Of a DNA stretch of 64,000 nt, positions 4,256 through 28,956 are shown one piece after another. Below the pieces are notes generated by a model. It was given only the letters and a program-made list of their open reading frames with translations, was not told the DNA's origin and ran no database searches. A program made the translations under genes and the position numbers. The stretch spans positions 744,001 to 808,000 of the forward strand of contig NZ_CP088953.1 in NCBI RefSeq assembly GCF_021165935.1, read 5' to 3'. The DNA is from Microbulbifer elongatus (GTDB lineage: Bacteria; Pseudomonadota; Gammaproteobacteria; Pseudomonadales; Cellvibrionaceae). Each line of letters begins with the position of its first letter. Within the stretch, counting starts at the first letter, position 1.

Positions 4256-4367
4256 GGCGAAGCACCGGGTGGATGGTTTTGAAACCGCTGTGAATACATC
4301 CCTGTACGCTGCGTCAGCGACGTCCCTGTCGCTGACGCTTTCAAAACCATCCACCCGGCACTTCGCC
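4256..4367. repeat. Intergenic palindromic element, class I copy 1 (outer stem plus two hairpins)
   Basis: The outer arms are complementary: CCGGGTGGATGGTTTTGAAA (4265-4284) pairs with its reverse complement ending near 4357, extended by GGCGAAG/CTTCGCC ends. Inside are a small hairpin TACA-TCCC-TGTA (about 4296-4307) and a long inner hairpin GCGTCAGCGAC-GTCCCT-GTCGCTGACGC (4311-4338). The same plan, with different but internally complementary arms, recurs at 28667-28771 and, inverted, at 28845-28956. It lies between yidC and the yidC terminator. Function unknown. Confidence 0.85.
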
Positions 4368-4394
4368 TTAGCATCAGCCGCAAGAACTTCGAAA

Positions 4395-4425
4395 GAAAAA
4401 AGGGCCGCATTTCGCGGCCCTTCTT
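4395..4425 (+). terminator. Rho-independent terminator after yidC
   Basis: A GC-rich stem AAGGGCCGC/GCGGCCCTT with an ATTTC loop is preceded by an A-run and followed by TTCTTCT. It ends the rpmH-yidC unit before mnmE. Confidence 0.8.
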
Positions 4426-4467
4426 CTATATAAACCAAGTAGCAGAAACCCGGATAGACTCAAAAGT

Positions 4468-5841
4468 ATGTCCCAGCAAAGCCTCAGTAAAGACACCATC
4501 GCCGCCGTCGCCACGCCTCCGGGCCGCGGCGGTATCGGTGTGATCCGCCTATCCGGCCCCGAAGCGAAGGCGATCGGAGAACAGCTGAGCCACCGCACCT
4601 TCAAGCCCCGCTTCGCCCACTACTGCGATTTCAGCCATCGCGGGCAAACCCTGGATCAGGGGCTGGCCCTTTTCTTTCCCGGCCCCAACTCGTTTACCGG
4701 TGAAGACGTCGTGGAACTGCAGGGGCACGGCGGACCCGTCATTCTGGATACGCTGATGTCCGCGCTGCTGGAACTGGGGGCGCGCCAGGCGCGGCCCGGT
4801 GAGTTCTCCGAACGCGCCTTTCTCAATGACAAGATGGATCTGGCGCAAGCCGAAGCCATCGCTGACCTGATTGACGCCGGCAGCGCACAGGCTGCCCAGA
4901 ACGCGCTGCGCTCCCTGCAGGGTGTTTTTTCCGAAAAAATCGAAAAGTTGGCCACACAACTCACCAATTTACGTATCTATGTCGAAGCATCGATCGATTT
5001 TCCAGAGGAAGAAATCGATTTTCTCGCCGATGGCAAGGTTGCGGCAGATGTCGAGGCCCTGCTCGCGCAATTGGACCGGGTAGAGGCTCAGGCGCGCCAG
5101 GGCACCATCATGCGCGAGGGGATGCAGGTGGCCATTGCCGGCAAACCCAATGCCGGCAAGTCCAGCCTGCTCAATGCCCTGGCGGGAAAAGACACGGCGA
5201 TCGTGACGGATATAGCGGGAACCACCCGGGATGTACTGCGGGAGCATATTCACATTGACGGTATGCCGCTGCATATTGCCGATACCGCTGGATTGCGTGA
5301 GTCGCCGGATCAGGTGGAACAGATTGGTATGCAGCGGGCCTGGGATGAAATCCGCGGCGCTGACCGCGTGCTGCTGGTGGTGGATGCCGCAGAGGTTCCC
5401 ACACTGGATCCGCAAAAGGCCTGGCCGGATTTTACCGAGCAACTGCCCGACCCGGACAAGCTCACCCTGGTACTGAACAAAATCGACCTTACCGACTACA
5501 CCCCCGGACTGCAGGCTCAGAGTGACGGCGTCCCCATTGTCGCCATCAGTGCGCGCACCGGCGCGGGTATCGAGGTATTACAACAACACCTGAAGCAATG
5601 CATGGGCTACCAGTCTGGTAACGAGGGCAGCTTCAGCGCACGGCGCCGCCACCTGGATGCACTGGCTCGCGCACGGGCCTTTGTCCTGGAGGGCCAGGCG
5701 CAACTGTGTGCGGCGGGAGCTGGCGAACTACTGGCGGAAGATTTGCGTCAGGCACAGCAGGCGCTGGGCGAGATTACCGGTGCGATGACCGCCGACGAGC
5801 TGCTCGGCAAGATCTTCGGCAGCTTCTGCATCGGTAAATAG
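4468..5841 (+). CDS. mnmE: tRNA modification GTPase MnmE
   Basis: MnmE, with MnmG, installs the carboxymethylaminomethyl group at C5 of wobble uridine 34 in several tRNAs. The 457-residue product has the N-terminal tetrahydrofolate-binding domain (starting [20 protein letters not shown]), a helical domain, and an inserted Ras-like GTPase domain with the P-loop GKPNAGKSS at about residue 225, [12 protein letters not shown] and NKID. It ends with the catalytic C-terminal FCIGK. Length and ends are normal. Its partner mnmG is 1.9 kb downstream, separated by a transporter gene on the other strand. Confidence 0.98.
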
Positions 5842-5881
5842 GCCGGTGAGGAACGGTTAATGGCGGCTAGCCCGGTACCGA

Positions 5882-7087
5882 TCAGTGGATTTGGCGATCG
5901 CGCCCCGCCAGCGCCCCGCAAGTCGCCATCAGCAATGTCAGGCCAACCCCCACCAGCAGCGGCCCCTGCCAGCTGTGCCAGTGTTCGTGCATGGCGCCAC
6001 TCAGGGCAGGCCCACTCGCCGCCAGCAGATACCCAATAAACTGCGCCATTCCCGACAGGCTTGCCGCCTGCCCCGCACTACCGGTGCGAAACGCCATGAA
6101 CATGATGGCCAGCAGAAAACAACCGCTGGAACCAAAGCCGAACAGTGCCACCCATAACACGGCCAGCGCGGGATACGCGAGCAGCCCCAGCAGTGCTACG
6201 GTCATCAGCAGCGCCATCCCCGCCGCCATCAGGCGCTGATCCCCAAATCGGGCCACCACCGGCCCGAGAAACAGCCCCGGCAACGCCGAAGCCAGCTGCA
6301 TTTCACCGTGCAGGGAACCGGCCACGACCGCGGTAAATCCGGCGTCGGTAAGAATGGCCGGCAGCCAGCTGGCCATGGAATAAAACATCACCGAGTTGAA
6401 ACCGAGGAATAGCGTAATCTGCCAGGCAATCGCAGATCGCCATATTCTCCCCACTGAAGGCTCCGCTGGCGCTGGACCCACCGCTGCGACCGACATGCTC
6501 CCTGCCCTCGCCATCCCCTGAGCCCGCAAACACCAGACGCCCAGCGCCAGTAGCGGCAGCAACCCCACCGCGAGCAGCCCCCCCTGCCAGCCAAACCACA
6601 AGGCCAGCGGCACCATACACACGGATACCAGCGCACCGGCGGTGCCCATGGAAACCCCACTGACACTGGTGGCTTGCGCCACTCGCTCGGGAAAATCCGA
6701 CTTTACCAGGCTGGGCAACAATACATTTCCCAGGGCGATACCGGCACCGATCACCGCAGTACCGGCAAACAGGGTGGCAACCGTCCCGGCGGAACGCAGC
6801 AATACCCCGCAGAAGATCCCCACGAGGGCGGCAAATATGGTGGCAGTGAGCCCCCAGTGCCGCGCCAGGTGGGGCGCAAACAGTGATCCCGCACTGAACA
6901 TCAGCAGCGGCAAGGTCGTGAGCAGCCCCGCGGTACCGGCATCCAGCCCGAGATCCCGCTGAAGCGTGCCGATAAGGGGGCCTACGCCGGTGACCGGGGC
7001 GCGCAGACACGCAGCCATCAGTATCAGGCCAGCGTATAGGAGGAGTGGATTGACCGTACGGGGAACGCTTTGGATTTGTGACACCAA
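5882..7087 (-). CDS. MFS transporter, CynX/NimT family
   Basis: A major-facilitator protein of about 401 residues with 12 predicted membrane segments. The N-terminal LRAPVTGVGPLIGTLQRDLG and the GTAGLLTTLPLLMFS stretch are typical of the CynX/NimT group (cyanate, nitroimidazole or other small-anion export). The substrate cannot be told from sequence. No ATG is available at the N-terminus: a TTG at 7087 or the GTG just after it gives a complete first helix, and an in-frame stop lies directly upstream. No clear ribosome-binding site is seen, so the start is uncertain. It runs against its neighbours, between mnmE and mnmG, and its 5' end faces the mnmG-side DnaA-box region. Confidence 0.85.
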   Translation of the reverse strand: MVSQIQSVPRTVNPLLLYAGLILMAACLRAPVTGVGPLIGTLQRDLGLDAGTAGLLTTLPLLMFSAGSLFAPHLARHWGLTATIFAALVGIFCGVLLRSAGTVATLFAGTAVIGAGIALGNVLLPSLVKSDFPERVAQATSVSGVSMGTAGALVSVCMVPLALWFGWQGGLLAVGLLPLLALGVWCLRAQGMARAGSMSVAAVGPAPAEPSVGRIWRSAIAWQITLFLGFNSVMFYSMASWLPAILTDAGFTAVVAGSLHGEMQLASALPGLFLGPVVARFGDQRLMAAGMALLMTVALLGLLAYPALAVLWVALFGFGSSGCFLLAIMFMAFRTGSAGQAASLSGMAQFIGYLLAASGPALSGAMHEHWHSWQGPLLVGVGLTLLMATCGALAGRDRQIH

Positions 7088-7189
7088 TCAGTTTGAGTTC
7101 GAAATATTGAAAACCGGTTTTCGGGAGCCCGGCGAGCGGTTTCGCCCCGAGCAGTCTGCCTGCTCCCGGGAGGCGCATTCTTCAACACA

Positions 7190-7640
7190 GGTCCCCCCCA
7201 TACAAGCCACAAGAGTTGCCCACAAAAATCCACAAGGTTATCCAGATAGACCACCTATCCAAGCTTCCTGCACAGCTATTTATCCCAGAAAGCCACAGAG
7301 TTATACACACTCTAAAAATCCAAGCCCCTGAAAACCCGACCTGTGGACAAATCAAGGGATGAATGGGTATCAAACCCGGTACGAATCCGGGGACAACTGG
7401 CAGTGCGCCCGTCACCGGCCAAAGTTATCCCATTCGTCCACATCTCCCTACCGTGGTTGTACCCCCGTAAACACAGGGGTTTACCCGGTGTTTATCCTTT
7501 ACTTAAGTCATTGTTTTATAAGGAATTTAAGGATCAATACAGAATATTGCCGGGACTAATAATTACATTAAACATAAACACGTACTTATACGTAAGGTAT
7601 GTATAACTTTATTTATGTATAGATAAGAGTGCAGACTAGG
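7190..7640. other. DnaA-box cluster with AT-rich flank upstream of mnmG (candidate oriC)
   Basis: Part of a 689-base gene-free gap. Boxes seen: TTATACACA at 7301-7309 (consensus match), TTATCCAGA at 7238-7246, TTGCCCACA at 7216-7224, TTGTCCACA on the minus strand at 7342-7350, plus weaker TTATCCCAT (7425-7433) and TCGTCCACA (7434-7442). They are followed by an AT-rich stretch (about 7500-7630) with several TTATA/TTTAT runs that could be the unwinding element. In E. coli oriC is beside mnmG (gidA). This cluster is denser than the one beside dnaA. The box-then-AT-rich layout is what an origin needs, but function is not proven. Confidence 0.65.
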
Positions 7641-7657
7641 AAATTTCAAAATGCCGC

Positions 7658-7686
7658 TTTTTTGCACAGCTCAACACCCCTATAAT
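7658..7686 (+). promoter_or_regulatory. Predicted promoter of mnmG
   Basis: A perfect -10 hexamer TATAAT lies at 7681-7686. With a 17-base spacer the -35 position is only a T-run (7658-7663), so the -35 is weak. It is about 90 bases before the mnmG start. In E. coli, transcription from the gidA promoter beside oriC influences initiation. Confidence 0.5.
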
Positions 7687-7776
7687 GTGCGGCCGAATTT
7701 TTACCTGACTCCCTGTTTATCGGGCTAACCTAGCCAGATCCGTGTGTTTACGCGGCTGGCACCAGAGCTGGATCCT

Positions 7777-9666
7777 ATGGACTACCCCACGCAATATGAT
7801 GTGATCGTGATTGGCGGCGGACACGCTGGCACCGAGGCGTGCCTGGCGGCGGCGCGTATGGGCAGTCGCACCCTGCTGCTGACCCATAACATCGAAACCC
7901 TGGGGCAGATGTCGTGTAATCCGGCCATTGGGGGTATCGGCAAGAGCCACCTGGTGAAAGAGGTGGATGCCCTGGGCGGTGCCATGGCCACCGCCACCGA
8001 CCTTGGCGGAATCCAGTTCCGCGTACTGAACGCGCGCAAGGGGCCGGCGGTACGCGCCACCCGCGCCCAGGCCGATCGCGCCCTGTACAAGGCGGCGATC
8101 CGCAATATCCTGGAAAATCAGCCCAATCTGGATATCTTCCAACAGGCAGCAGACGACCTGATCGTCGAAAATGACCGCGTTTGCGGGGTGGTCACCAATG
8201 CGGGCCTGCGCTTCCTCGGCAAGACCGTGGTGATTACCGCGGGTACCTTCCTCGGCGGGCGTATTCATATCGGCCTCGACAATCACTCCGGTGGTCGCGC
8301 CGGGGATCCTCCGTCCATCGCCCTCGCCGAGCGCCTGCGCGCCCTGCCGTTCCGCGTCGAGCGTCTGAAAACCGGAACCCCACCCCGTATCGACGCGCGC
8401 TCCGTGGACTTCTCCGGGCTGGAGGAACAGTGGGGCGATGCGCCGCTTCCGGTGATGTCTTACCTGGGCAACCGCGACCAGCACCCGCGCCAGGTGTGCT
8501 GCTGGATCACCCACACCAACGAGAATACCCACGACATCATCCGCGGTGGCCTGGACCGTTCACCGATGTATTCAGGGGTGATCGAAGGCATTGGCCCGCG
8601 CTACTGCCCGTCCATCGAGGACAAGGTGCACCGTTTTGCGGACAAGAACAGCCACCAGATCTTTATCGAGCCCGAGGGTCTGACCACCAACGAGCTCTAT
8701 CCCAACGGGATCTCCACCAGCCTGCCGTTCGACGTGCAGATGAATCTGGTGCGCTCGATCAAAGGCTTTGAGAACGCGCATATCACCCGCCCCGGCTACG
8801 CCATCGAGTACGACTTCTTCGACCCGCGGGATCTGCTGCCGTCGCTGGAAACCAAATTTATCGGTGGTCTGTACTTTGCCGGTCAGATCAATGGCACTAC
8901 CGGTTACGAAGAAGCCGCAGCCCAGGGCCTGCTGGCGGGCGCCAATGCCGCTCTGCAGGCACAGGACAAAGACGCCTGGTCCCCGCGCCGCGACGAGGCC
9001 TATCTGGGCGTACTGGTGGACGACCTGATCACCAGTGGCACCAAGGAGCCCTACCGGATGTTTACCAGCCGTGCGGAATACCGCCTGCTGCTGCGGGAAG
9101 ACAACGCGGATCTGCGCCTGACCCAAAAAGGCCGCACCCTGGGCCTGGTGGACGATGTGCGCTGGCAGGCTTTTTGTGAAAAACGCGAGGCCATCGCCTT
9201 GGAGCAGCAGCGTCTCAGGGATACCTGGATCCAGCCGGGATCCGACGCCGCCAAGACCGTCGAACAGAAGCTGCCGCAGCCACTGGCGCGGGAATACAGC
9301 CTGCAGGATCTGCTCAAGCGCCCGGAACTGGAGTACGCAGACGTGGCCGCGCTCAAGGGCGAGCCGGTCTCCGATGAGCAGGTGGCCGAACAGGTGGAGA
9401 TCTCTGCAAAGTATGCGGGTTATATCGACCGCCAGCGGGACGAGATCGAGCGCCTGCAGGCCTACGAGGACACCCCGTTGCCGGTGGACTTCGACTATGC
9501 CGCCGTCTCCGGCCTGTCCAACGAGGTGATCCAGAAGCTGTCCGACGCGCGCCCGGATACCCTGGCCCGCGCCGGCCGTGTGCCCGGTGTGACCCCTGCA
9601 GCGGTGTCGCTGCTGCTGATCCAGCTGAAAAAGCGTGGTCTACTGAACCGCAAAAAGGCGGTTTGA
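7777..9666 (+). CDS. mnmG: tRNA uridine-5-carboxymethylaminomethyl synthesis enzyme MnmG
   Basis: This is the FAD- and NADH-using partner of MnmE in wobble-uridine modification. I chose the ATG giving [20 protein letters not shown], which places the GxGxxG dinucleotide-binding motif near residue 14 and gives 629 residues, the usual family length. A GTG 11 codons upstream is less likely. Conserved blocks are [20 protein letters not shown], the stretch [12 protein letters not shown], and [19 protein letters not shown]. The C-terminal helical domain that contacts MnmE is present. Four bases separate its stop from rsmG. Confidence 0.98.
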
Positions 9667-9670
9667 GCGG

Positions 9671-10315
9671 ATGGAGCAGTTTCGCACCCGGCTGCAGCAG
9701 GCGGCCACCCAGCTCGATCTGACTCTCAGCGGCGAACAGCAGGACAGGCTGCTGGCCTACCTCGACCTGTTTGCGCGCTGGAACGCCGCCTACAACCTGT
9801 CCGCGGTACGCGATCCGGCGGAAATGCTGGAGCGCCATATCATCGACAGTCTGAGCGTGGTCAATCTGTGCGGCAGCAGTGCCGAGGACCAGTCCCCGCT
9901 GATCGATGTGGGCTCCGGCGGCGGCCTGCCGGGCATTCCCCTGGCCATCATCCACCCCGAGCGCCCCATCAGCCTGCTGGACAGCAACGGCAAGAAATCC
10001 CGCTTCCAGTTTCAGGTGGCCAGCCAGCTCAAGCTCACCAATATCAACGTGGTGAACCAGCGGGTAGAGGCCTATCAGCCGCAGGATCTTTACGCGGGGG
10101 TGGTTTCCCGGGCGTTTGCCTCGCTGCAGGACATGGTTTCCGGAAGTGAACACTTACTTGCTCCCGGGGGCCGATTCTATGCGATGAAGGGCAAGATCCC
10201 GGAAGATGAGTTGAGTGCATTGCCAAAAGGCATTAAGGTCGAACAGCTGCACCCACTGCGTGTACCCGGGTGTGATGCCGAGCGCCATCTGATCGTCCTC
10301 CAGCGTGCGGATTGA
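9671..10315 (+). CDS. rsmG: 16S rRNA (guanine-527-N7)-methyltransferase RsmG
   Basis: RsmG methylates N7 of G527 in 16S rRNA using S-adenosylmethionine. The 214-residue product has the N-terminal LDLFARWNAAYNLSAVRDP and HIIDSLSVV, then the SAM-binding DVGSGGGLPGIPLAI at about residues 78-92 and LLDSNGKKSRF. Near the end, FYAMKGKIPEDEL matches the family. It directly follows mnmG (gidA-gidB order). A hairpin separates it from parA. Confidence 0.97.
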   Translation: MEQFRTRLQQAATQLDLTLSGEQQDRLLAYLDLFARWNAAYNLSAVRDPAEMLERHIIDSLSVVNLCGSSAEDQSPLIDVGSGGGLPGIPLAIIHPERPISLLDSNGKKSRFQFQVASQLKLTNINVVNQRVEAYQPQDLYAGVVSRAFASLQDMVSGSEHLLAPGGRFYAMKGKIPEDELSALPKGIKVEQLHPLRVPGCDAERHLIVLQRAD

Positions 10316-10371
10316 GCCAGCGGCCACGCTTCCCCTTACCGGGGTGGACCACAACACACGAATTCGATACC

Positions 10372-10405
10372 AGCACACCGGGCCGATGTTCGCGGGTGTG
10401 CTTTT
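10372..10405 (+). terminator. Possible weak terminator between rsmG and parA
   Basis: AGCACACC (10372-10379) pairs with GGTGTGCT (10395-10402), followed by a short TTT. The loop is large and the T-run short, so read-through into parA is likely. Confidence 0.4.
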
Positions 10406-10492
10406 GCTGCCGCATCTTCCGGTGACACCGGCCTAGCGGCGAGCCCGGACCGCCAGAGGAGCTGTGCTGCCGGGAACAACAGGATCAGAACC

Positions 10493-11323
10493 TTGAGCAA
10501 GATTTTTGCGGTAGCCAACCAGAAAGGCGGTGTGGGGAAGACCACCACCTGCGTCAACCTGTCCGCGTCCCTCGTCGCCAACAAGCGCCGGGTGCTGCTG
10601 ATTGACCTGGACCCCCAGGGCAACGCCACCATGGGCAGCGGCGTGGACAAGAGCGACCTTCAATTATCCAGTTACGACGTACTGGCCAGCCTGCTGCCAC
10701 CGCGCAAGGCCATCGTGCCCACGGACAGTGGCTACGATCTGATGCCGGCCAATATCGACCTGTCTGCCGCAGAAGTCGAGTTGCTGGAAATGGACGGCCG
10801 TGAATCCCGCCTGCGCCAGGCCTTGGAACAGATCAGCGACGACTACGACTACATCATCATCGACTGTCCGCCGTCCCTGAACATGCTCACGGTAAACGCC
10901 CTGTGTGCCGCCGGCGGCGTGCTTATTCCCATGCAGTGCGAATACTACGCACTGGAGGGCCTGAGCTCCCTGATCGACACCATCACCCAGGTGCAGCAGG
11001 CGGCCAATCCCAACTTAAGAATCGAAGGCATACTGCGCACCATGTACGACCCGCGCAACAGCCTTACCGGCGATGTGTCGGAGCAGCTGAGCGAATACTT
11101 TGGTGAGCGTTTGTACCGCACCTGTATTCCGCGCAATGTACGCCTGGCGGAAGCCCCCAGTTTCGGCAAACCGGCTCTGGATTACGACCGCAGCTCCAAG
11201 GGCGCCATCGCCTATCTGGCACTGGCTGGCGAAATCACCCGCCGCGACGCCGCGGCCAAACCGAACAGTTCATCCAACAGCAATCAAAGCAGCGGACCTC
11301 GCCCGGTAGCGGAAGCGGTTTAA
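10493..11323 (+). CDS. parA: Chromosome partitioning ATPase ParA (Soj)
   Basis: ParA is a Walker-type ATPase that, with ParB bound at parS, moves and separates newly copied origins. The 276-residue product begins KIFAVANQKGGVGKTTTCVN, with the deviant Walker A KGGVGKTT. Walker A' LIDLDPQGNAT and Walker B YIIIDCPPSL are also present, followed by MQCEYYALEGLS. The start is TTG after an AGGATCAGAA ribosome-binding site. The tail is Ser/Asn-rich. parB follows 18 bases later. I found no convincing parS site in the window. Confidence 0.97.
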   Translation: MSKIFAVANQKGGVGKTTTCVNLSASLVANKRRVLLIDLDPQGNATMGSGVDKSDLQLSSYDVLASLLPPRKAIVPTDSGYDLMPANIDLSAAEVELLEMDGRESRLRQALEQISDDYDYIIIDCPPSLNMLTVNALCAAGGVLIPMQCEYYALEGLSSLIDTITQVQQAANPNLRIEGILRTMYDPRNSLTGDVSEQLSEYFGERLYRTCIPRNVRLAEAPSFGKPALDYDRSSKGAIAYLALAGEITRRDAAAKPNSSSNSNQSSGPRPVAEAV

Positions 11324-11341
11324 GACTGAGGTAGAAGACTT

Positions 11342-12250
11342 ATGGCCGGCAAACGCAAGGGCCTCGGGAAAGGACTTTCCCATCTGATCAGCAATAACGC
11401 CAGTGAAGCCATTGCCGTGGCCACCGGCGAGCGCAACGGCGATATCACCGAGCGCGTGGACGGCGAGCTCAAAGAGCTGCCCATTGAATATCTGCAGCGG
11501 GGCCGCTACCAGCCGCGCCGCGATTTCCCGCAGGAGTCCTTGCAGGAGTTGGCCGATTCCATCCGCGCCCAGGGCATCATGCAGCCCATCGTGGTACGCC
11601 CTATCGGCGAGCGCAAATACGAGATTATTGCCGGTGAGCGCCGCTGGCGCGCCGCGCAGATTGCTGAGCTCGACAGGGTTCCTGCGCTGATCCGCGAGGT
11701 GTCCGACGAAGCCGCCATCGCCATGGCGCTGATCGAGAACATCCAGCGGGAAGACCTGAACCCGGTGGAAGAAGCCATCGCCCTCAAGCGCCTGCAGGAC
11801 GAGTTCGAACTCACCCAGCAGCAGGTGGCGGAAGCGGTGGGCAAGTCCCGTACCGCGGTAACCAATCTGCTGCGCCTGTTGAGCCTGACCGAAGAGGTGC
11901 GTACCTTCCTCGAGCGCGGGGATATCGAGACCGGTCACGCCAAGGCACTGCTTGGTCTCGCCGGTGAAAGTCAGAAGTCCGCTGCCCGCCAGGTGGTGGA
12001 TCGCGGCCTCACTGTGCGCCAGACCGAAGCCCTGGTGCGCAATATCCACGAGCAGGCGGGTAAGCCGAAGCCGAAGAAGCCGGAGGTGGATCCGAATATT
12101 CGCCGCCTGACCGAACGTCTTGCGGAAAAAATTGGCGTCCCAGTTTCCATTGATCACGGAGAAAAAGGCGCCGGAAAGCTGGTACTGAAATACAGCAGTC
12201 TCGACGAGCTGGACGGTATTCTCTCCCACATGGGTTACAGCGAAGACTGA
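11342..12250 (+). CDS. parB: Chromosome partitioning protein ParB (Spo0J)
   Basis: ParB is the parS-binding CTPase clamp that activates ParA. The 302-residue product opens with KRKGLGKGLSHLI (the ParA-stimulating segment usually sits at the extreme N-terminus). The CTP-binding boxes are RYQPRRDF, IVVRPIGERKYEIIAGERRW and ENIQREDLNPVEEA. The helix-turn-helix QQVAEAVGKSRTAVTNLLRL is at about residues 160-180. The C-terminal dimer domain ends at residue 302. It forms an operon with parA and ends in a strong terminator. Confidence 0.97.
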   Translation: MAGKRKGLGKGLSHLISNNASEAIAVATGERNGDITERVDGELKELPIEYLQRGRYQPRRDFPQESLQELADSIRAQGIMQPIVVRPIGERKYEIIAGERRWRAAQIAELDRVPALIREVSDEAAIAMALIENIQREDLNPVEEAIALKRLQDEFELTQQQVAEAVGKSRTAVTNLLRLLSLTEEVRTFLERGDIETGHAKALLGLAGESQKSAARQVVDRGLTVRQTEALVRNIHEQAGKPKPKKPEVDPNIRRLTERLAEKIGVPVSIDHGEKGAGKLVLKYSSLDELDGILSHMGYSED

Positions 12251-12303
12251 ACCGGGGTCGTCTCCACCCCGCTGGAACCGTTACTATTGCAACGTTTCCG
12301 TAA

Positions 12304-12341
12304 AAAACGCGCCAAAATAGTGCAATATTTTGGCGCGTTTT
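12304..12341 (+). terminator. Rho-independent terminator after parB
   Basis: A perfect 16-base stem, AAAACGCGCCAAAATA paired with TATTTTGGCGCGTTTT around a GTGCAA loop. It ends in TTTT on the plus strand and begins in an A-run, so it could work in both directions. It separates the par and atp operons. Confidence 0.9.
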
Positions 12342-21032: not shown

Positions 21033-21036
21033 ACCT

Positions 21037-22518
21037 ATGTGGCGGCACTGGCAACTGCGCACACTTCTTCGATGGATATCTGCCGTGGCGCTTGTTGTCA
21101 GTACCGGTGCCAGTGCGGATGATTGGTGCGAATACCAATCTGAGAATTTCACCGTTTACTCCGACGTGCCCGAGCGTCGCGTGAATCAGCTGATGCGCGA
21201 CCTGGAGCGGTTCCGCCGCAGCGCCCTCTCGTTTACCGGTGAGGAGGAAACACCGGAAAATAAAAATCTGCGGGTATTCCACTTCCGCGACTCTGCGGAA
21301 TTCGCCCGCTTTACCGGCGACCGCAAAATTGCCGGTCTGTACCGGGAAACCTGGGAAGGCCCGATCATCTTCTCCCGCGACGGCGACCACGGCATCTCCG
21401 GCTCCGGCCTGATCTTCCACGAATACGTCCACCATCTGATGCGCGAGCGCAGTGGTATGACTTACCCGCGCTGGTACTCCGAAGGTTTTGCCGAGCTACT
21501 GGCCAGCGCGGAACTGCGTAAAAAAACCGTATTGATCGGCGGCCTGCCGGAGTGGAGACTGAGTGCCTGGGCCGAGGATGAACCCCTTACCCTGCTACAA
21601 CTTCTCGCCCCACCGCCACTGGCTGCGCCACACGGCGAAGACAACAGCCGCTACTGGAACAATTACTATGCCAGTGCCTGGCTGCTGACTCACTATCTGC
21701 AACTCGGCTACAGTGCTGGTCACCCGGACTACCGCGCATCTACCAGCAATTATCTCAAAGCCGTGGCCGCCGGCGAGAACCCGTTTCAGATATTCGAAGA
21801 GCATTTCGGAAAATCGATCGAAGAGATTCAAAGGGAAATGCTTGCCTATATGCGCACGGACATTCACCGTCACCGGCTGGAAATTCCGGAGTACACCTAC
21901 TCCATTCCCCGTCGCGCCCTCAATGAAAATGAGCAGCTGTTTCTGCTGGCGAACGAAGCCATGGACTTCGCCAAACCCGCGCTGGCGATGGACTACCTGA
22001 AGCGCAGCCAACAGCAGGGGCTGGGCTGGCAGGAAAACCTCACCGCCATGGCGGTTATCGAAGCGGAGAAGAAAAATTACAAGCTTGGCAAAAAAGTGCT
22101 GGAAGACATCGGCGAACACGGTCAGATCAGCCACCTCACCGCCGCGAATCTGGCCCGCTACTATCTGTTGCGACTGCAGGCCCTGACACTGACGCGGGAC
22201 TGGGATGAAGACATCTATGAAGCGGCAGTGAAATACGGAAAAATTGCCGTGCAGATGGGGCCGAATTATTTACCAGGCTACCGTACCCTCTGGACTGCCT
22301 ATCAATTGAAAGGTGAAAGCGAAGACGCGCTGCAGATCATGTTGAGCGCCTACCACCAGGAACCCAACCACCTGAACCTGAATGCCACGCTGGGTTTCTA
22401 TCTTGCCCACCTGGGCAAGGCCGCACTGGCCCGCGAATACCTGGAGCGGGTCGTGGCCTGGAGCCATTCGGAAGATCTTCGCGGGCGCGCGGAGTCTTTG
22501 CTGGAGGGTAAAAAATAA
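21037..22518 (+). CDS. Secreted HExxH (gluzincin-like) protein with TPR-like C-terminus
   Basis: The 493-residue protein has an N-terminal signal peptide (LRWISAVALVVSTGASA). Residues 30-200 contain HEYVHHL (His128, Glu129, His132) and, about 20 residues on, RWYSEGFAELL, which supplies the third zinc ligand Glu. This layout fits the DUF1570/peptidase-MA type of gluzincins. The second half (about 280-493) is helical with paired Ala/Leu/Tyr patterns typical of TPR repeats, for example NLNATLGFYLAHLGKAALAR. It is likely periplasmic. Peptidase activity is inferred from the motif, and no substrate is known. It forms a tight pair with the upstream patatin gene and ends before a large palindromic repeat. 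Confidence 0.75.
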   Translation: MWRHWQLRTLLRWISAVALVVSTGASADDWCEYQSENFTVYSDVPERRVNQLMRDLERFRRSALSFTGEEETPENKNLRVFHFRDSAEFARFTGDRKIAGLYRETWEGPIIFSRDGDHGISGSGLIFHEYVHHLMRERSGMTYPRWYSEGFAELLASAELRKKTVLIGGLPEWRLSAWAEDEPLTLLQLLAPPPLAAPHGEDNSRYWNNYYASAWLLTHYLQLGYSAGHPDYRASTSNYLKAVAAGENPFQIFEEHFGKSIEEIQREMLAYMRTDIHRHRLEIPEYTYSIPRRALNENEQLFLLANEAMDFAKPALAMDYLKRSQQQGLGWQENLTAMAVIEAEKKNYKLGKKVLEDIGEHGQISHLTAANLARYYLLRLQALTLTRDWDEDIYEAAVKYGKIAVQMGPNYLPGYRTLWTAYQLKGESEDALQIMLSAYHQEPNHLNLNATLGFYLAHLGKAALAREYLERVVAWSHSEDLRGRAESLLEGKK

Positions 22519-22571
22519 TCTTAAGAGTCGAAATGCCTCTATTGATTAATTGGAAGGAAGTGTGACGTGAA

Positions 22572-22721
22572 GGCGCTGCTGCCCGGCACTGCTTTGTGAG
22601 ACCTTCCGCGAGAGGGGCCGAAGGCGCCGTGAACGCCTGGAACGGCCGGGCCACCTCGCGGAAGAGCCCCCTTGGATGGGTTTATGGCGTGTCTCACAAA
22701 GCAGTGCCGGGTGGTGGCGCC
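22572..22721. repeat. Intergenic palindromic element, class II copy 1
   Basis: The arms CCCGGCACTGCTTTGTGAGAC (22582-22602) and its exact reverse complement (22691-22711) are 21 bases, extended by GGCGC-type ends to about 31 base pairs with mismatches. Inside are a long inner stem CTTCCGCGAG/CTCGCGGAAG with further G/C-rich pairing (about 22603-22664) and, on the 3' side, GAGCCCCCTTGGATGGGTTT, which can form a short hairpin. It shares arm motif, inner-stem position and GGATGGG word with 33280-33406. It lies between two convergent genes, so it could act as a two-way transcription barrier. Confidence 0.85.
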
Positions 22722-22734
22722 GCCACATATTCGG

Positions 22735-25700
22735 TCAGTGCACCCAGTGGTGCCGCTCCTGTTTCTCCTGAATCGCTTCCGCAGTCGGTGTCGGCATCGC
22801 GCTTACCGGTAAACGCTCGTGGAAGAACGCCAGTCGCTCGTCCCCTTCCACCTCGTTCATGGTGGCGGCGTCGAACACCTTGCCGTTGATGACGGTGTAC
22901 TTCACCTTCTCGGACAGACGCAGGTCCTCCAGCGGGTTGCCGTCCACCACAATGATGTCCGCCAGCTTGCCCGGCTCCAGGCTGCCGATATCGTGGTCCA
23001 TACCCAGGTAGCGGGCACCGTCAATGGTGCCGGCGCGGAAGGCTTCCCAGGGGGTAAAGCCGCCCTGTGCCATCATCCACAGCTCCCAGTGGGCACCGAG
23101 GCCCTCGCGCTGGCCGTGGGCACCGATATGCACGGTAACGCCCTTGTCGCGCAGTTGTTTCGCGTGATGGGCCACGTCCACATGGTTGTAGTGGTGGTCC
23201 GGCGCGGTGGGGCGGCGGATGGAGCGTGGGTTGACGATAAAGTCCGGGGTAAAGCGGGTCAGGCGCTCGTTCTTCCATACCTCGCTGCGGTCGTACCAGT
23301 AGGTCTCACCGGAGAGACCGCCGTAGGCCACCACAAAGGTCGGGGTATAGCCCACGGTGGTCTGGCCCCACATCTGCTCGACATCGGTGTAGATGTTCGC
23401 AATGGGCAGTGAGTGCTCGACGCCGGTGTGACCATCCACAATCATGTTCATATTGTGCTGGTACTTACCGCCCCCTTCCGGCACCACCATGATGCCGTGC
23501 TTGCGCCCCGCTTCCAGCACCTGCTGGCGCTGTTCGCGACGAGGCTGGTTGTAGCTCTTCACCGAGATCGCACCCATTTCTTTCAGGCGGCCCACATGGA
23601 ACTCGGCGTCTTCCAGGCTGTTGATCTTGGCCTTGTAGCCGGGGCCCTTGGCGCCGTAAAGAATGGTGCCGGTGGAGAAGATGCGCGGGCCGTTGATGAT
23701 GCCGGCCTTCTGCATTTCCGCGGCGGAGAAGATCTCGCTGCTGTCGTTGGAGGGATCGTGAATGGTGGTCACACCGAACGCCAGGCTGGAGTAGAGGTTC
23801 CAGTTCTGTTGCGGGATGATCTCCTCGCGGCCCTGGGCACCGTGGGCGTGAGCATCTACCAGACCCGGCAGTACGGTCTTGCCGGTGACGTCGATGCGCT
23901 GGGTGCCGCTGGGGATTTCCACCTCACGCTGCGCGCCCACCGCCACAATGCGGTTGCCGCGAAACAGCACCACACCATTCTCGATCACTTCCTGCGCGGA
24001 TTCGGCGTTGCGCATGGTCACCACGGTACCGCCGGTCAGCGCCACCAGTTTGTCGCTGTTGGCAAATTTTTGTTTGAAGCTGAGATCGATCCCTTCGCTG
24101 ACCGGCTCCGGCAGGGTTTCCGGGGCGCCGGCGACAAACTCAAACGCGTCTTTCAGTTCGCGCTCGTACAGCTTGGGTCCGTGGGACCAGCCCAGGGTCT
24201 GGCTGTCGCCGGACCAGTGCAGGTGCTCACCGGCACGCTTGGACACCTGGGTGACCTTCACTGCGGTGGCATTGGGACCGATAGATTCGGATTTGCCGGT
24301 GTGCATAAACGGCGCCGCGAAGGCCTTGAAGTCCTGGGTAAAGGCCACCCAGCGGCTGTCTGGGGACAGGCGGAAAGAGGTGATCTCGGCACCGTGCAGG
24401 TGCTCGCGTTCATCCTTGCCGTTGGCATCGACACTCTTGAACACGCGCTTGCCGCCGTTGCCGTAGATGTACTCGGAGAAGTAGATGCGATCGCTATCGG
24501 CACCGAAGTGGGGCTCGTAGCCGGATTTACTGATGCGACGCTGCCAGTCACCGTCGGCATCTGCCAGGTAAATACCCGGTTCGAGAGAGTATTCCGGGCT
24601 CAGCAGGTAGCCGCCGGTAAAGCGGCGGAAGGCCACGGTCTCGCCATCCGGGGAGAAGCTCGGCTCCACATACAGGCCTGGTTCATCGGTGATGGTCTTG
24701 CCGCGGCCACTGCGCGCGGAAACCACACGCACCTGGCCGAGTTCCTCATCGTCCCAGGTCACGTAAGTGATCTGTTTGCCGTCCCGGGACCAGCTGGGAT
24801 AGAACTCGAAGTGCGCGTCCTGGCGGGTCAGTCGACGACGTTCACCGCTGTTTACGTCCTGAACGTAGATCTTGCCCAGCGCCTGGAAGGCGATCTGCTT
24901 GCCGTCCGGAGATTTCTGCGCCCAGCGGATCATCTTCACATCGAACTGTTCCGGCGCCACATCCACCGGGAAGCGTACCGCGTCGGCGACTTTCTTCTCG
25001 GTCTTGATGTGCGCGACGATTTCCCGCGCGCCCTGTTCGAGGCTGCTGCCGTCCGCATTGATGCGCAGGAATTTACCGCCGCTCCACACGATCAGGGATT
25101 TGCCGTCCGGCATCCAGTCGTAGTGCACGTAATTGCCGTGGGAGCCAAAGGTTTCCTGGAGATCCCGCTCCAGACCGGTGTAGATGGGCTTTTCCAGGCC
25201 GCTGTTAAGGTCTTTCACGAACAGGGATGTCTGGTCGTCCTGGCGGCGGATAAACGCCAGCTTTTCACCGTCCGGCGACGGTACCGGGGCGATGGAGCCG
25301 CCGGGGCCGGAGACGAAGGTCTCTTCCTTACCGTCCTGCAGGTCGTAGCGATTGATGGCAAAGATCTGCTGGGTGGAGTTCTTGTTGTACTCCCACACCG
25401 TGCCCGGGGTGGTGTCGATGGCGTAATAGATGTAGCGGCCATCCGGGGAGAAGACCGCGTCGGAAATATTCTTCTGAGCAATCTCGCCACCGATACGCGC
25501 CTTGATCTGGCGCCCTTCACCACCACCGTGGTGGTACATCCAGATCTCCCCGGCGGGGATACTGCGGCCACTCATAAAACCTTTGCGCGCCACCAGGTAC
25601 TGGCCGTCCGGGCTGAAGTTGGGGGCGTGCACCAGGTTTTCTTTTTCCGTGGTCAGCTGGCGTAGATTTTCGCCGTTGCGGTCCATGACCCAGATATTGT

Positions 25701-26061
25701 CGGCGCCGTCGCGGTCGCTGACGAACACGATGGACTTGCCATCGGGACTGAAGCGCGGCTGGATATTCCATGCGATTTCACTGGTGATGGCTTTCGCTTC
25801 GCCACCATTGACCGACATCTCATAGATGTCGCCCAGCATATCGAAGACGATGGTCTCGCCGTCGGGGCTGATATCCAGGTTGCTCCAGGTGGTCTCGCGG
25901 GTATCCAGGGGGATGGCCTTGAACTCGAAGGGGGGCTTGTTTACATCCCATTTGTCCGCGTCTTTGTTGGCTTCTTCCGCCGCTGCCGCCAGCGGCAGGG
26001 TCATGGCGAGGCTGGCGCCGCCGATCAGGCGCGCGAGCTTGCGCATTTTCATTTTTATCAT
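22735..26061 (-). CDS. Secreted beta-propeller / amidohydrolase fusion protein
   Basis: The 1108-residue protein has a signal peptide (ARLIGGASLAMTLPLAAAA). A TolB/WD40-like (PD40) beta-propeller follows at about residues 40-640, seen as repeated SPDG words such as LDISPDGETIVFDMLGDIYE, FSPDGKSIVFVSDRDG and FSPDGETVAFRRFTGG. The C-terminal half is an imidazolonepropionase-like amidohydrolase: LPGLVDAHAHG (His738 and His740, metal ligands), a Lys in GAISVKSYNQP, HTGVEHS, HIGAHGQ, and the closing GTIDGARYLG and LEPGKLADIIVVDGNPLED. Such proteins are exported hydrolases of unsettled substrate, with cyclic amides or peptides suggested for relatives. I chose the ATG at 26061 with GGGAG upstream; a longer in-frame start adds 21 residues before the signal peptide. 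Confidence 0.88.
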   Translation of the reverse strand: MIKMKMRKLARLIGGASLAMTLPLAAAAEEANKDADKWDVNKPPFEFKAIPLDTRETTWSNLDISPDGETIVFDMLGDIYEMSVNGGEAKAITSEIAWNIQPRFSPDGKSIVFVSDRDGADNIWVMDRNGENLRQLTTEKENLVHAPNFSPDGQYLVARKGFMSGRSIPAGEIWMYHHGGGEGRQIKARIGGEIAQKNISDAVFSPDGRYIYYAIDTTPGTVWEYNKNSTQQIFAINRYDLQDGKEETFVSGPGGSIAPVPSPDGEKLAFIRRQDDQTSLFVKDLNSGLEKPIYTGLERDLQETFGSHGNYVHYDWMPDGKSLIVWSGGKFLRINADGSSLEQGAREIVAHIKTEKKVADAVRFPVDVAPEQFDVKMIRWAQKSPDGKQIAFQALGKIYVQDVNSGERRRLTRQDAHFEFYPSWSRDGKQITYVTWDDEELGQVRVVSARSGRGKTITDEPGLYVEPSFSPDGETVAFRRFTGGYLLSPEYSLEPGIYLADADGDWQRRISKSGYEPHFGADSDRIYFSEYIYGNGGKRVFKSVDANGKDEREHLHGAEITSFRLSPDSRWVAFTQDFKAFAAPFMHTGKSESIGPNATAVKVTQVSKRAGEHLHWSGDSQTLGWSHGPKLYERELKDAFEFVAGAPETLPEPVSEGIDLSFKQKFANSDKLVALTGGTVVTMRNAESAQEVIENGVVLFRGNRIVAVGAQREVEIPSGTQRIDVTGKTVLPGLVDAHAHGAQGREEIIPQQNWNLYSSLAFGVTTIHDPSNDSSEIFSAAEMQKAGIINGPRIFSTGTILYGAKGPGYKAKINSLEDAEFHVGRLKEMGAISVKSYNQPRREQRQQVLEAGRKHGIMVVPEGGGKYQHNMNMIVDGHTGVEHSLPIANIYTDVEQMWGQTTVGYTPTFVVAYGGLSGETYWYDRSEVWKNERLTRFTPDFIVNPRSIRRPTAPDHHYNHVDVAHHAKQLRDKGVTVHIGAHGQREGLGAHWELWMMAQGGFTPWEAFRAGTIDGARYLGMDHDIGSLEPGKLADIIVVDGNPLEDLRLSEKVKYTVINGKVFDAATMNEVEGDERLAFFHERLPVSAMPTPTAEAIQEKQERHHWVH

Positions 26062-26349
26062 CTGGGCTCCCTGGGTAGTCGGAGTGATCGGAGTGGTTTC
26101 CCGGCTGCACCGGTTCGGGTGCATGGGTGACGGTTAATTTTTTCTTCAAATTACTGAAATGTCGGGGAAAGACAACGAAGCTGCGCCGAACGGCATATAG
26201 TTCTGAATATTGCCCCCCTGCGGGATATATGCCCGCAGAGGTCCACCTGCGCGTGTTAATTCTCCACGCGGGCGGCGAGAGTATGTTCCGGTGGCCACGG
26301 CGTCAGGGGTCTAGACTTGCTGCTAACGTCGGTGAACAGGCTTCCGAAC
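26062..26349. other. Divergent intergenic region with a short hairpin
   Basis: It separates the minus-strand amidohydrolase gene from the plus-strand FNT gene and should hold both promoters. A hairpin CTGCGGG-ATATATG-CCCGCAG lies at 26218-26238. No other feature was recognised. Confidence 0.4.
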
Positions 26350-27165
26350 ATGAGTCATAAAAGCAGGCCGGGTACCGAAGCCGGGCGCCCCAAAAGTGAA
26401 CGGGATATTCTGCAGGAACAGATGCAGGAGAGCCTGCACGAGTACCAGCGCAATAACCGTTCCCTGTTTCTGTCCTCACTGGCGGCGGGCCTGGAGATCG
26501 GCTTCAGTCTGTTTTTGATGGCGGCGTTTTACAGCCACTTCAACGGCCCCGAGTTCGAGCAGCTGATGTACCTGCTGGTGGCGCTCAGTTATCCCATCGG
26601 ATTTATTCTGGTCATCATCGGCCGCTCGGATCTGTTTACCGAACACACCACCCTGGCCATTCTGCCCCTCTTGAGCGGTCGTGAGCGGGTGGCCAGTCTC
26701 GCGCGTGTCTGGGGGGTGATTTACGCGGGCAATATGGTGGGTGCCTTTCTGTTCAGCCTGCTGTTTGTGCACTATGTGGAAGTGACCGAGCGCTTGGACG
26801 CCGGTATTTTTGCCTATTACGGAGAAAAGCTGCTGGCAGACATTCCCAGGGGGCAGTTTGTCGGTGCCATTTTTGCCGGCTGGTTGATGGGGCTGCTGGG
26901 CTGGATGGTGGCATCAGCGGCGGAGACCATCAGCCGGATCGTCGTGGTGGCGCTGATTGCGTTCGTTATCGGCCTGGGTGGGCTGGCCCACTGTATCGCC
27001 GGTGCGGTGGGCATTTTCTGTGCCCTGTTGAGCGATGAGTCCACCATGAGGTTATGGGAGGGGCTGCGTTTTCTCGGCGTGGCGACCCTGGGAAACACCA
27101 TTGGCGGTTCGATCTTTGTGGGTATGCTGAAGTACAGCTATGTGGCCAATGGCCCAAAGCCCTAA
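26350..27165 (+). CDS. Formate/nitrite transporter (FNT) family channel
   Basis: A 271-residue inner-membrane protein with six predicted membrane segments after a charged, Lys/Glu/Gln-rich N-terminal cytoplasmic helix (KSERDILQEQMQESLHEYQR). The FNT signature region is VIIGRSDLFTEHTTLAILPL, and AHCIAGAVGIFCALLS carries a conserved pore-side segment. The long N-terminus and FTEHT resemble YfdC-type members rather than FocA. Transported ion unknown (formate, nitrite or another small anion). An upstream ATG (26317) would add 11 residues. Nothing nearby indicates a pathway. Confidence 0.82.
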   Translation: MSHKSRPGTEAGRPKSERDILQEQMQESLHEYQRNNRSLFLSSLAAGLEIGFSLFLMAAFYSHFNGPEFEQLMYLLVALSYPIGFILVIIGRSDLFTEHTTLAILPLLSGRERVASLARVWGVIYAGNMVGAFLFSLLFVHYVEVTERLDAGIFAYYGEKLLADIPRGQFVGAIFAGWLMGLLGWMVASAAETISRIVVVALIAFVIGLGGLAHCIAGAVGIFCALLSDESTMRLWEGLRFLGVATLGNTIGGSIFVGMLKYSYVANGPKP

Positions 27166-27247
27166 TCGGTGACCCCGTCCGGCTTGAGATCTGCCCCCCG
27201 GGCCGCCACAATTGCCGACGATTTTCACCCACCTGAACGGATTTTCC

Positions 27248-28624
27248 ATGACCATCGATGTCGTCATTCTCGCCGCCGGCAAAGGCACCCGCATGCGCTC
27301 CGACCTGCCCAAAGTGCTCCACCCCATCGGAGGGGTACCCATGCTGGGACGGGTCATCAACGCGGCCCAGGGTTTGGGTGAAGAGGGTCTGGGGGATGTA
27401 TCGATTACCGTGGTCATCGGCCACGGTGCCGAACTGGTGCGCGAGCGCTTTGCCGACAGTGGCGTGCGGTTTGTGGAGCAGACCGAGCAGCTGGGCACTG
27501 GTCACGCGGTGGCCCAGGCGATCCCGAACTTCCGTGAAGGTGCCACGGTGGTGGTACTCTACGGCGACGTACCGCTGGTAAAAACCGCCACCCTGGAAGA
27601 TCTGCTCAAAGCTTCTGCAAACGGCCCGGCTTTGTTGTCCGTAGTGATGGACGATCCCTCCGGTTACGGCCGTATCGTGCGCGACACCGCCAATGCGGTA
27701 CAGGCGATTGTGGAACAGAAAGACGCCGACGAGGCCACCCTCACCATCCGCGAGATCAACACGGGTATCCTCGCCGCCCCGGGCAAGTTGCTGGCCCAAT
27801 GGCTGCCGGAACTCTCCAACGACAACGCCCAGGGTGAGTACTACCTCACCGATGTGATCGCGCGCTCTGTGAGTGAGAATATCGCCGTGACCGGCGTGAT
27901 CGCTGAAGACCCGTTTGAAGTTGCCGGCGTCAACAGCCGCGCGCAGCAGGCGGAACTGGAGCGCGCGCTGCAGCAGGACAATGCCAATACGTTGATGACC
28001 GCGGGCGTTACCCTGCTGGACCCTGCGCGCATTGATGTGCGCGGCACCCTCGACTGCGGCGCCGACGTTACCATCGATATCAACTGCATCTTCGAGGGCG
28101 AGGTCACCCTCGGCGACAATGTTCAGATCGGTCCCAACTGCCTGCTGAAGAACTGCAAACTGGCGGCGGGTACCGTGGTGGAAGCCAACTCCATTATCGA
28201 AGACGCCGTCGTCGGCGAAACCTGCACCATCGGCCCCTTCGCTCGCCTGCGCCCGGGCACCGAGCTGGCCAGCGGAGCCAAGGTGGGTAACTTCGTCGAA
28301 ACCAAGAAGGCCAAAATCGGCCTCGGCAGCAAGGTAAACCACCTCTCCTATATCGGCGACGCGGAAGTGGGCGAAGGCGTAAACATTGGCGCCGGTACCA
28401 TCACCTGTAATTACGACGGCGTGAACAAATCTAAGACTACCATTGGCGATGGCGCCTTTATCGGCTCCAACTCCGCACTGGTTGCCCCGGTCGAAATTGG
28501 CGCCGGTGCGACCATTGGTGCTGGTTCCACTATTACCCGTGAAGTGAGTGCTGACGAACTGGCTGTGGCCCGTGGCAAGCAGCGCAATATCTCCGGGTGG
28601 CAACGACCCACCAAAAAGTCCTGA
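27248..28624 (+). CDS. glmU: Bifunctional UDP-GlcNAc pyrophosphorylase / glucosamine-1-phosphate acetyltransferase
   Basis: GlmU makes UDP-GlcNAc for peptidoglycan and LPS in two steps. The 458-residue product has the N-terminal pyrophosphorylase domain with [20 protein letters not shown] and LGTGHAV, and a C-terminal left-handed beta-helix of hexapeptide repeats from about residue 250. The helix contains the acetyltransferase residues in RPGTELA and [11 protein letters not shown], and [15 protein letters not shown] chose the ATG giving [11 protein letters not shown]; the 12-codon upstream extension is not conserved. It lies upstream of glmR-glmS, as in Pseudomonas, but with four genes between. 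Confidence 0.98.
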
Positions 28625-28666
28625 GTCTCGTGGTCCTGGGTGCTTCGAATTTGGTTGGGCGGCGAC

Positions 28667-28771
28667 GGAGCACCGGGTAAAGGTTTTCAGGACCGCTGTG
28701 AACCCATCCCTGGGCGCTGCGGCGCAAACATCCTGTTTGCGACGCTCCTGAAAACCTTTACCCGGCACTCC
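28667..28771. repeat. Intergenic palindromic element, class I copy 2
   Basis: The outer arms CCGGGTAAAGGTTTTCAGGA (28673-28692) and their reverse complement (28746-28765), extended by GGAG/CTCC, enclose CCGCTGTGAACCCATCCCTG. That includes a small hairpin CCCA-TCCC-TGGG (28703-28714). The inner hairpin is CGCAAACA-TCC-TGTTTGCG (28723-28741). Compared with 4256-4367, the arms and inner stem differ in sequence but pair just as well. It lies 42 bases after glmU. Confidence 0.85.
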
Positions 28772-28844
28772 ACCTTCAGTCGAACCCAATTCACTTCGAA
28801 AGAACTTTCCTAGTCTACTAACGAAGTCAATGGGGTTAAGAGAA

Positions 28845-28956
28845 GGCAAAGTGCCGGGTGTTAATTTTCGAAAGCGTCGGCGACAGGGACGTCGCCGACG
28901 CAGCGTACATGGATGTATTCACAGCGGTTTCGAAAATTAACACCCGGTGATTTGCC
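28845..28956. repeat. Intergenic palindromic element, class I copy 3 (inverted orientation)
   Basis: The arms CCGGGTGTTAATTTTCGAAA (28854-28873) and their reverse complement (28928-28947), extended by GGCAAA/TTTGCC, enclose an inner hairpin GCGTCGGCGAC-AGGGAC-GTCGCCGACGC (28874-28901). A small hairpin TACA-TGGA-TGTA (28906-28917) follows. Read on the minus strand it shows the same CCGCTGTGAATACATCCATG core as the other class I copies. It lies 73 bases from copy 2, in opposite orientation, and 85 bases before the E1 alpha gene. Confidence 0.85.

Follow-up and report, generated by a model that had tools for sequence, protein, structure and literature searches.

The 64-kb window analyzed here (64,000 nucleotides of the Microbulbifer elongatus genome, contig NZ_CP088953.1, positions 744,001 to 808,000) contains three copies of a palindromic intergenic element, which we term class I and number E1, E3, and E4, and two divergent relatives, E2 and E5. 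E1 (positions 4251 to 4370 of the window) lies between two genes that, from their sequence and order, we take to be yidC and mnmE; the same gene order presumably places the window near the origin. E3 (28659 to 28777) lies 3′ of a gene that we take to be glmU, and E4 (28842 to 28961) is its convergent partner. We refer to the strand reading CCGCTGTGAA as the CATCC strand and to the opposite strand, the proposed RNA, as the GGA strand; the GGA strand is the minus strand in E1 and E3 and the plus strand in E4, the CATCC strand being the reverse in each case. Scored with the covariance model described below, the three copies reach 134.9 (E1), 131.2 (E3), and 136.5 bits (E4). The spacer of the tail-to-tail pair E3/E4 (28778 to 28841) carries the conserved 3′ tails ACTTCG.../CTAACGAAGT. 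Between E1 and mnmE there is a separate terminator-like hairpin (GGGCCGC..GCGGCCC, 4400 to 4422), which most relatives compared at the yidC-mnmE site retain.

The initial annotation had placed three copies at 4256 to 4367, 28667 to 28771, and, inverted, 28845 to 28956, each with complementary outer arms and an inner hairpin. Direct reading confirmed these copies and the complementarity of both arms and inner hairpins, and an inverted-repeat listing gave the arms of E1, E3, and E4 as 91%, 90%, and 88% complementary, respectively, flank helix included. The pattern CACCGGGT N60-90 ACCCGGCA has exactly 3 matches in the window (0.00 expected in shuffles), and the core with up to three mismatches likewise has exactly 3 (0.14 expected). 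The inner part is present and paired as described but consists of two hairpins, not one: the outer stem closes a three-way junction with two inner hairpins, whose loops read CATCCMTG and CGTCCCTG/CATCCTG, and is prolonged outward by a flank helix of variable sequence (GGCGGCvvvG / CvvvGCC). The core is conserved over about 55 nucleotides (nt), and the arms vary. The count of three holds for class I; the window also contains E2 (22569 to 22726; CATCC strand minus, GGA strand plus; 55.6 bits), which has a CGCCATAAACCCATCC core, a first loop UUGGAU (22672 to 22677), and an altered second hairpin with no ANGGA site, and E5 (33277 to 33411; CATCC strand minus, GGA strand plus; 52.4 bits), with loops AGGGAU (33321 to 33326) and AUGGAU (33344 to 33349). 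An extra GAGCTAGGCGCCCCCC-like piece lies inside the core in some subclasses (loci L133, L139, L141, and L138, and E5), and hairpin 1 of other copies contains a long insertion (L049:1696-1894 and L061:962-1160).

In the 4.2-Mb genome from which the window is taken (G000), the exact core occurs 28 times, and a reversed control pattern has no occurrence. A covariance model built from these 28 copies (R1; 120 positions, 43 pairs) gave 148 matches in G000 at an E value of ≤1 (150 of 2,317 first-look candidates were scored), corresponding to at least 142 places after removal of six opposite-strand readings, weak matches included; the genome-wide search that the initial annotation had called for thus found many further copies. 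Named Microbulbifer loci (L227, L228, and L241) align with G000 loci at 83 to 88% identity over 0.6 to 2.3 kb. In a panel of 58 genomes (G000, 36 of the same genus, and 21 from other genera of the order; G numbers denote genomes and L numbers denote loci), R1 had matches at an E value of ≤10−6 in 39 genomes and 5 of 22 genera, with per-genome counts within the genus ranging from 0 to at least 62. The core pattern CGCYGTRAAYNCATCCMTGNRNGCT was found in at least 119 stretches of public genomes, and the 80 matches listed include Stenotrophomonas, Halomonas, Rheinheimera, Shewanella, Marinobacter, Microbulbifer, and others; we take all 80 titles to be gammaproteobacterial, except one named just "Proteobacteria bacterium." The places in G000 are denser in the chromosome half around the window (106 versus 36; Kolmogorov-Smirnov P = 2 × 10−9). 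When copies were mapped relative to genes, as the annotation had proposed, 82 of 130 flanking gene sides were gene ends, with neighbors convergent at 23, tandem at 36, and divergent at 6 of 65 copies (rough open reading frame calls; 13 more copies were not callable). Close pairs in G000 are mostly arranged tail to tail (19 of 22, including E3/E4), with the two proposed RNAs pointing away from a common center, an arrangement suggestive of a promoter there.

The pairing of the outer arms is maintained by matched changes. Among 89 distinct copies (a set that includes relatives and three opposite-strand readings), double-sided changes occur at all 20 outer-arm pairs, 97.7% of cells are paired compared to 73.5% in shuffles (0 of 500 as high), and the covariation score is 0.628 compared to 0.182 in shuffles (again 0 of 500 as high); sliding the partners by one to three columns lowers pairing to 31.5 to 46.1%. 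Chance pairing is excluded, and the copies differ by covariation, as the annotation had anticipated, and not by sharing identical arms. Its description of the arms as unrelated applies across the whole family, where the 20-nt arms of 104 copies have a mean identity of 34% (median aligned arm, 28 bp in the 121 copies with enough flank, with 104 of ≥20 bp and 7 of <14 bp), but not within the genus, where the copies have most of CCGGG and TTTT in common and vary freely at about six positions. Class I has 49 distinct arms in 53 rows, and of the four arms that recur, one comes from a single copy read on both strands; the six variable positions are shared by 22 copy pairs, compared to 10.3 expected from independent columns (4 of 500 shuffles).

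To follow arm changes at single loci, we matched loci by BLAST (78 to 97% identity) between G000 and G024, G031, G001, and other genomes, leaving 35 element pairs after two rows at L162 were dropped as not orthologous; flank identities were rejected as proof of orthology because they are inflated by omitted gaps and unrelated flanks also exceed 0.75. Of 700 orthologous arm pairs, 557 show no change; 126 of the 143 that do show change have it on both sides, and the other 17 changed otherwise. Several neighboring pairs have sometimes changed together while the core is 98 to 100% identical, and of the 17 ortholog pairs with a core identity of ≥0.96, 10 have at least three double changes and 4 have none, indicating that arm change comes in bursts. 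At one locus, the same arm positions read GGGG in G000, CTGA in G031, CAGG in G026, and AAGG in G015, and the opposite arm matches each. Whole elements, including the core type, have been swapped at some orthologous loci (e.g., L168/L049). At the yidC-mnmE site, G000 and G001 carry the element and G016 has a copy from a different class. No such element is present in 20 of the 24 loci compared; G002 has a simple hairpin there (GGGATAGGTTTTCGAAAACTTATCCC, L071) without the two-hairpin core. At L147 (G003) and L149 (G014), the same intergenic site as judged from the flanks, the element is inverted and the arms are similar (by eye), which fits a template-switch signature.

The mismatches that do occur point to the strand that folds. 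Pairing at the DNA level only would make G·T and A·C equally frequent on a given strand and does not predict a skew. In the arms of 114 copies from across the family, read on the strand opposite CCGCTGTGAA, we counted 112 G·U and 26 A·C mismatches (P = 6 × 10−14; 141 other mismatches), and copy by copy G·U was in excess in 61 versus 10, with 43 ties (P = 5 × 10−10); these tests count copies as independent, whatever their relatedness. The skew persists without the listed Microbulbifer loci (97 versus 25), at named non-Microbulbifer loci (67 versus 18), and, again without the listed Microbulbifer loci, for isolated mismatches with three Watson-Crick pairs on each side (53 versus 9). Within Microbulbifer, 43 of 87 distinct rows have CA/CA as the two bases that flank the arm on its outer side, equivalent to tandem U·G/G·U on the GGA strand, and the flank helix has, on the CATCC strand, 0 G·T and 14 A·C in 434 cells. 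RNAfold predicted the GGA strand to be the more stable in 84 of 121 copies family-wide and in 74 of 86 local (genus) copies, and the two strands of control windows did not differ (127 of 238; P = 0.33); the energies for the GGA and the other strand are −79.8 and −72.9 kcal/mol for E1, −72.0 and −65.8 kcal/mol for E3, and −67.3 and −63.3 kcal/mol for E4. The strand opposite CCGCTGTGAA thus probably folds as RNA. Mutation linked to transcription or to single-strandedness could also skew the mismatches, which would itself mark the GGA strand as special. A strand call from the core helices was rejected, as the CATCC-strand G·T cells are mostly loop closing or in a helix chosen by RNAalifold.

On this strand, the loops resemble binding sites of CsrA. 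A review of CsrA binding (PMC7652899) gives the consensus obtained by systematic evolution of ligands by exponential enrichment (SELEX) as RUACARGGAUGU, with six-base loops and AC/GU pairing, the loop of RsmE targets as ANGGAN, the CsrB repeat form as CAGGA(U/A/C)G, with about 18 sites in CsrB, and the distance over which one CsrA dimer bridges two sites as 10 to 63 nt. The loops of E1 on the minus strand are AGGGAU (hexaloop 1, 4298 to 4303, within GUACAGGGAUGU, an exact match to the consensus) and AGGGAC (hexaloop 2, 4322 to 4327), in the contexts UAC-AGGGAU-GUA and GAC-AGGGAC-GUC with a C-G closing pair. E3 has AGGGAU (hexaloop 1, 28706 to 28711, minus strand) and a five-base loop 2, AGGAU (28730 to 28734, minus strand), where CAGGAUG is the CsrB repeat form; E4 has AGGGAC (hexaloop 2, 28885 to 28890) and AUGGAU (hexaloop 1, 28909 to 28914), both on the plus strand. 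Counted from a structural alignment of 86 distinct Microbulbifer copies without a loop filter, loop 1 is an ANGGAN hexaloop in 79, a figure partly ascertained in that R1 was built from 28 copies picked by the exact core pattern, with G at position 2 in 54 of the 79. Loop 2 has GGA in all 86 (53 ANGGAN, 28 five-base AGGA[TCA], 3 seven-base, and 2 long loops). Family-wide, loop 2 is not fixed by the search pattern, and the 124 second hairpins found in 128 copies have GGA on the proposed RNA strand in 111, on the other strand alone in 4, and on neither in 9, compared to 255 of 3,874 control-window hairpins with GGA (6.6%). The exact 12-mer RUACARGGAUGU is present in 23 of 89 rows. Between orthologs, loop 1 (six bases in both members of 33 of the 35 pairs) differs only at its two N positions (9 and 3 differences), and loop 2, comparable in 14 pairs, has four changes at N and one at an invariant position.

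The two GGA motifs are also regularly spaced. Across the family, the distance is 22 to 24 nt in 102 of the 111 copies whose two loops both contain GGA, and it is 23 to 24 nt in 72 of 80 local rows with two motif matches, so that the elements combine ANGGAN-type GGA loops with paired sites inside the bridging range. The host encodes CsrA (PF02599, 89.6 bits in G000), as do most of the genomes searched (matches in 52 of 56); missing or partial CsrA matches in five relatives were not taken as evidence, as the sequence there was not fully readable. From loop sequence, strand, and spacing, binding of CsrA is a strong prediction. Neither the RNA strand, itself a probable assignment, nor the CsrA-type loops were part of the initial annotation. 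Genomes G003, G004, G006, G009, G010, G014, and G029 have 5 to 19 CsrA genes each and few elements (1 to 37); an inverse relation between the two (7 versus 23 genomes, P = 0.002) was set aside because a yidC tree, which does not include G029, groups the other six in a single clade. At L260 and L266 (Halomonas and Vreelandella), an extra hairpin inside hairpin 2 has its GGA on the opposite strand.

Mobility is seen in one relative. G014 contains a young set of near-identical copies, and comparison with empty loci of G003 and G029 revealed a TA duplication. It is evident at two sites, L155/L319 and L150/L320, and likely at a third with a weaker left flank, L153/L323; the insertion pattern at L154 is not clear. 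These elements resemble miniature inverted-repeat transposable elements (MITEs) in being short, non-coding, and dispersed and in varying by presence and absence, the target duplication coming from the G014 family only. In the window's own family, conservation extends in one direction as far as approximately TACTTCGTTAGC and in the other as far as GTGGTCC..GGTGCT. The 5′ end of the G014 family occurs at eight places in G014 (≤3 mismatches), all of them elements themselves, and no transposase was identified, no search by transposase family having been made. Intervals of about 450 to 670 bp between convergent copies were considered as an autonomous parent and rejected; the two inspected by eye (L126 and L127) resemble ordinary host genes.

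We lean toward the view that the element is a mobile palindrome of which one strand is a two-site CsrA-type RNA, its arms being matched by RNA selection together with DNA copying. The family, its structure, covariation, strand-specific wobble, loop conservation, and spacing, and mobility in one relative, are computational results; from these we infer transcription, CsrA binding, a regulatory effect, and a copying mechanism, in the following sequence. A MITE-like palindromic element would spread copies through Gammaproteobacteria, and transcription of the strand opposite CCGCTGTGAA would come from read-through or from a start site within the element. In the RNA, the long outer stem would close a junction with two short hairpins presenting mostly ANGGAN GGA loops 22 to 24 nt apart, across which one CsrA dimer could bind, so that the copies would form scattered sites for the binding or titration of CsrA. 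The outer arm would be a mere clamp, free in sequence as long as it pairs. Its matched changes would come from selection on RNA pairing, aided by DNA copying that rewrites the two arms in concert, through template switches inside the palindrome and gene conversion between copies. If selection does act on the RNA but insertions are oriented at random, the RNA may work for the element itself or in trans and not regulate the neighboring gene.

Several observations weigh against this interpretation. Mismatches are rare in the local 20-bp arms, where 1,711 of 1,740 cells are Watson-Crick and the CATCC strand has 3 G·T, 6 A·C, and 20 other mismatches (87 rows, one of them antisense), so that RNA selection alone is no full explanation. 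The hairpin 2 stem has no G·U excess and is at least 8 bp long in 74 of 111 family-wide copies, unlike most SELEX CsrA hairpins, which had ≤4 contiguous pairs (PMC7652899). Loop 2 has five bases in 28 of the 86 local copies, loop 1 is 92 nt long without GGA in 2 of 86, and GGA is lost in 2 more; E2 retains a single GGA loop, and the GGA strand of E5 is slightly the weaker of the two (−71.2 versus −73.0 kcal/mol). A scan near the E3/E4 pair found no sigma-70-like promoter. Tandem neighbors of the 65 mapped copies show no orientation preference (18 with and 18 against the GGA strand); a cis role in mRNA would lead us to expect a strand bias, and its absence is substantive counter-evidence to the predicted CsrA binding. 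Finally, Rfam models Ysr224, a family with the same core, on the CATCC strand, opposite to the proposed RNA.

The competing account that fares best, although we consider it unlikely, is pure DNA copying, in which the element is a non-coding MITE whose arms are rewritten by template switching and gene conversion with no RNA function. Passages of PMC8794818 describe template switching as creating and keeping perfect stems, including by loop inversion. Such copying would suit the predominance of double-sided ortholog changes, at times next to cores 98 to 100% identical, the local arms with no wobble excess, the inversion between G003 and G014, and the core types swapped together with the arms at several loci. 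It does not predict an excess of G·U on one strand of unrelated arms and leaves the GGA conserved in both loops and the fixed spacing unexplained, and one-sided mismatches persist in the recent G014 copies (by eye), so that copying is not immediate. The initial annotation had read matched changes as selection on folding or as copying of one arm from the other, and both halves find support here, in the one-strand G·U skew and the double-sided ortholog changes, respectively.

Somewhat less probable is that the two hairpin loops are recognized, in single-stranded or cruciform DNA, by a protein such as a transposase, much as IS200/IS605 or RAYT enzymes do, with the conserved core as the recognition signal. 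The element is mobile, palindromic, and dispersed, and a loop-reading transposase could also conserve the loops, which detracts from the CsrA-type reading; the RNA-type wobble asymmetry in the arms and the confinement of the G014-family 5′ end to elements themselves argue in the other direction, and the TA duplication of that family is not a pattern known for IS200/IS605, a further count against this account. A terminator or stabilizer of mRNA 3′ ends, as proposed for REP, ERIC, and YPAL hairpins, agrees with the many flanking gene ends, but a plain hairpin needs neither GGA loops nor fixed spacing, E1 has no T-run after its stem (by eye), and a separate terminator-like hairpin stands beside it, making this the least probable of the alternatives.

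If the CsrA-type reading is true, an RNA motif of unknown function described in 2010, a mobile palindrome of Yersinia, and a set of widespread repeats, for which our literature searches found no name, would all be tied to CsrA, a much-studied global regulator that acts post-transcriptionally in these bacteria, and transposition would be able to spread CsrA targets. With many natural copies and orthologs of graded divergence, the origin of matched changes in perfect stems is testable in bacteria.

Among known systems, the closest are two Rfam families and the Yersinia repeats. In the window, all Rfam matches stay below the gathering scores of their families; Ysr224 matches on the CATCC strand and TwoAYGGAY on the GGA strand, the other weak matches being to unrelated families. 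TwoAYGGAY (RF01731) has two GGA-loop hairpins, on the same strand as the RNA proposed here, and shares the Rfam clan CL00106 with CsrB; passages of PMC4333381 propose a CsrA-binding role for it. By coordinates, all six RF01731 matches in G000 (E value ≤1) lie on the GGA strand of R1 elements, but none reaches the gathering score of 43 bits (best, 41.9), nor does any in 18 family-wide loci; in other genera, two matches scored 47.6 and 43.5 bits in one search and fell below the cutoff in another. The loops of TwoAYGGAY are AYGGAY, whereas the elements mostly have G, not Y, at position 2 of loop 1 (the 54 of 79 above), and mobility, high copy number, and arm turnover, which characterize the elements, are not mentioned for TwoAYGGAY in the portions of PMC2864571 and PMC4333381 consulted. 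YPAL/RU-2 of Yersinia and Ysr224 (RF02770) share the core (CGCCGUAAAUACAUCCAUGUAGGCUC, then a CAUCC-loop hairpin) and the two-hairpin plan; YPAL/RU-2 is likewise palindromic, intergenic, and mobile, and the GGA loops of RU-2 are about 24 nt apart (by eye). When the RU-2/YPAL sequence printed in PMC2759123 is reverse complemented, the Ysr224 consensus agrees with it by eye, and Ysr224 had eight weak matches in 20 local loci (26.7 to 34.6 bits; gathering score, 70). The target duplications of YPAL are 3 to 26 bp in the section of PMC2229807 that treats them, compared to the TA seen at two clear sites and one weaker site of the G014 family, and the excerpts of the literature examined mention neither arm hypervariability nor CsrA for YPAL/Ysr224. 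Small RNAs of the CsrB/RsmZ type also present several GGA hairpin loops on one RNA, but the elements have two sites instead of about 18, in dispersed mobile copies with a long variable clamp stem. REP/BIME and ERIC are dispersed palindromes that form inverted pairs, as here, and differ in sequence; the elements, unlike them, have a two-hairpin core and no associated enzyme was found, none having been sought by family. Apart from PMC4333381 on TwoAYGGAY, literature searches, whose hits were mostly titles, gave no link of CsrA to these repeats, and the CsrA motif models in the part of PMC4383904 seen do not cover them. Since neither gathering cutoff is reached in G000, the element is not filed under TwoAYGGAY or Ysr224; both TwoAYGGAY and YPAL/Ysr224 look like parts of the much larger family to which it belongs. 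More tentatively, gammaproteobacterial genomes may hold up to more than 100 mobile two-site CsrA-binding RNAs, decoys or docking sites spread by a transposable family whose near-unique clamp arms are rewritten on both sides at once, with TwoAYGGAY and YPAL as glimpses of this one family.

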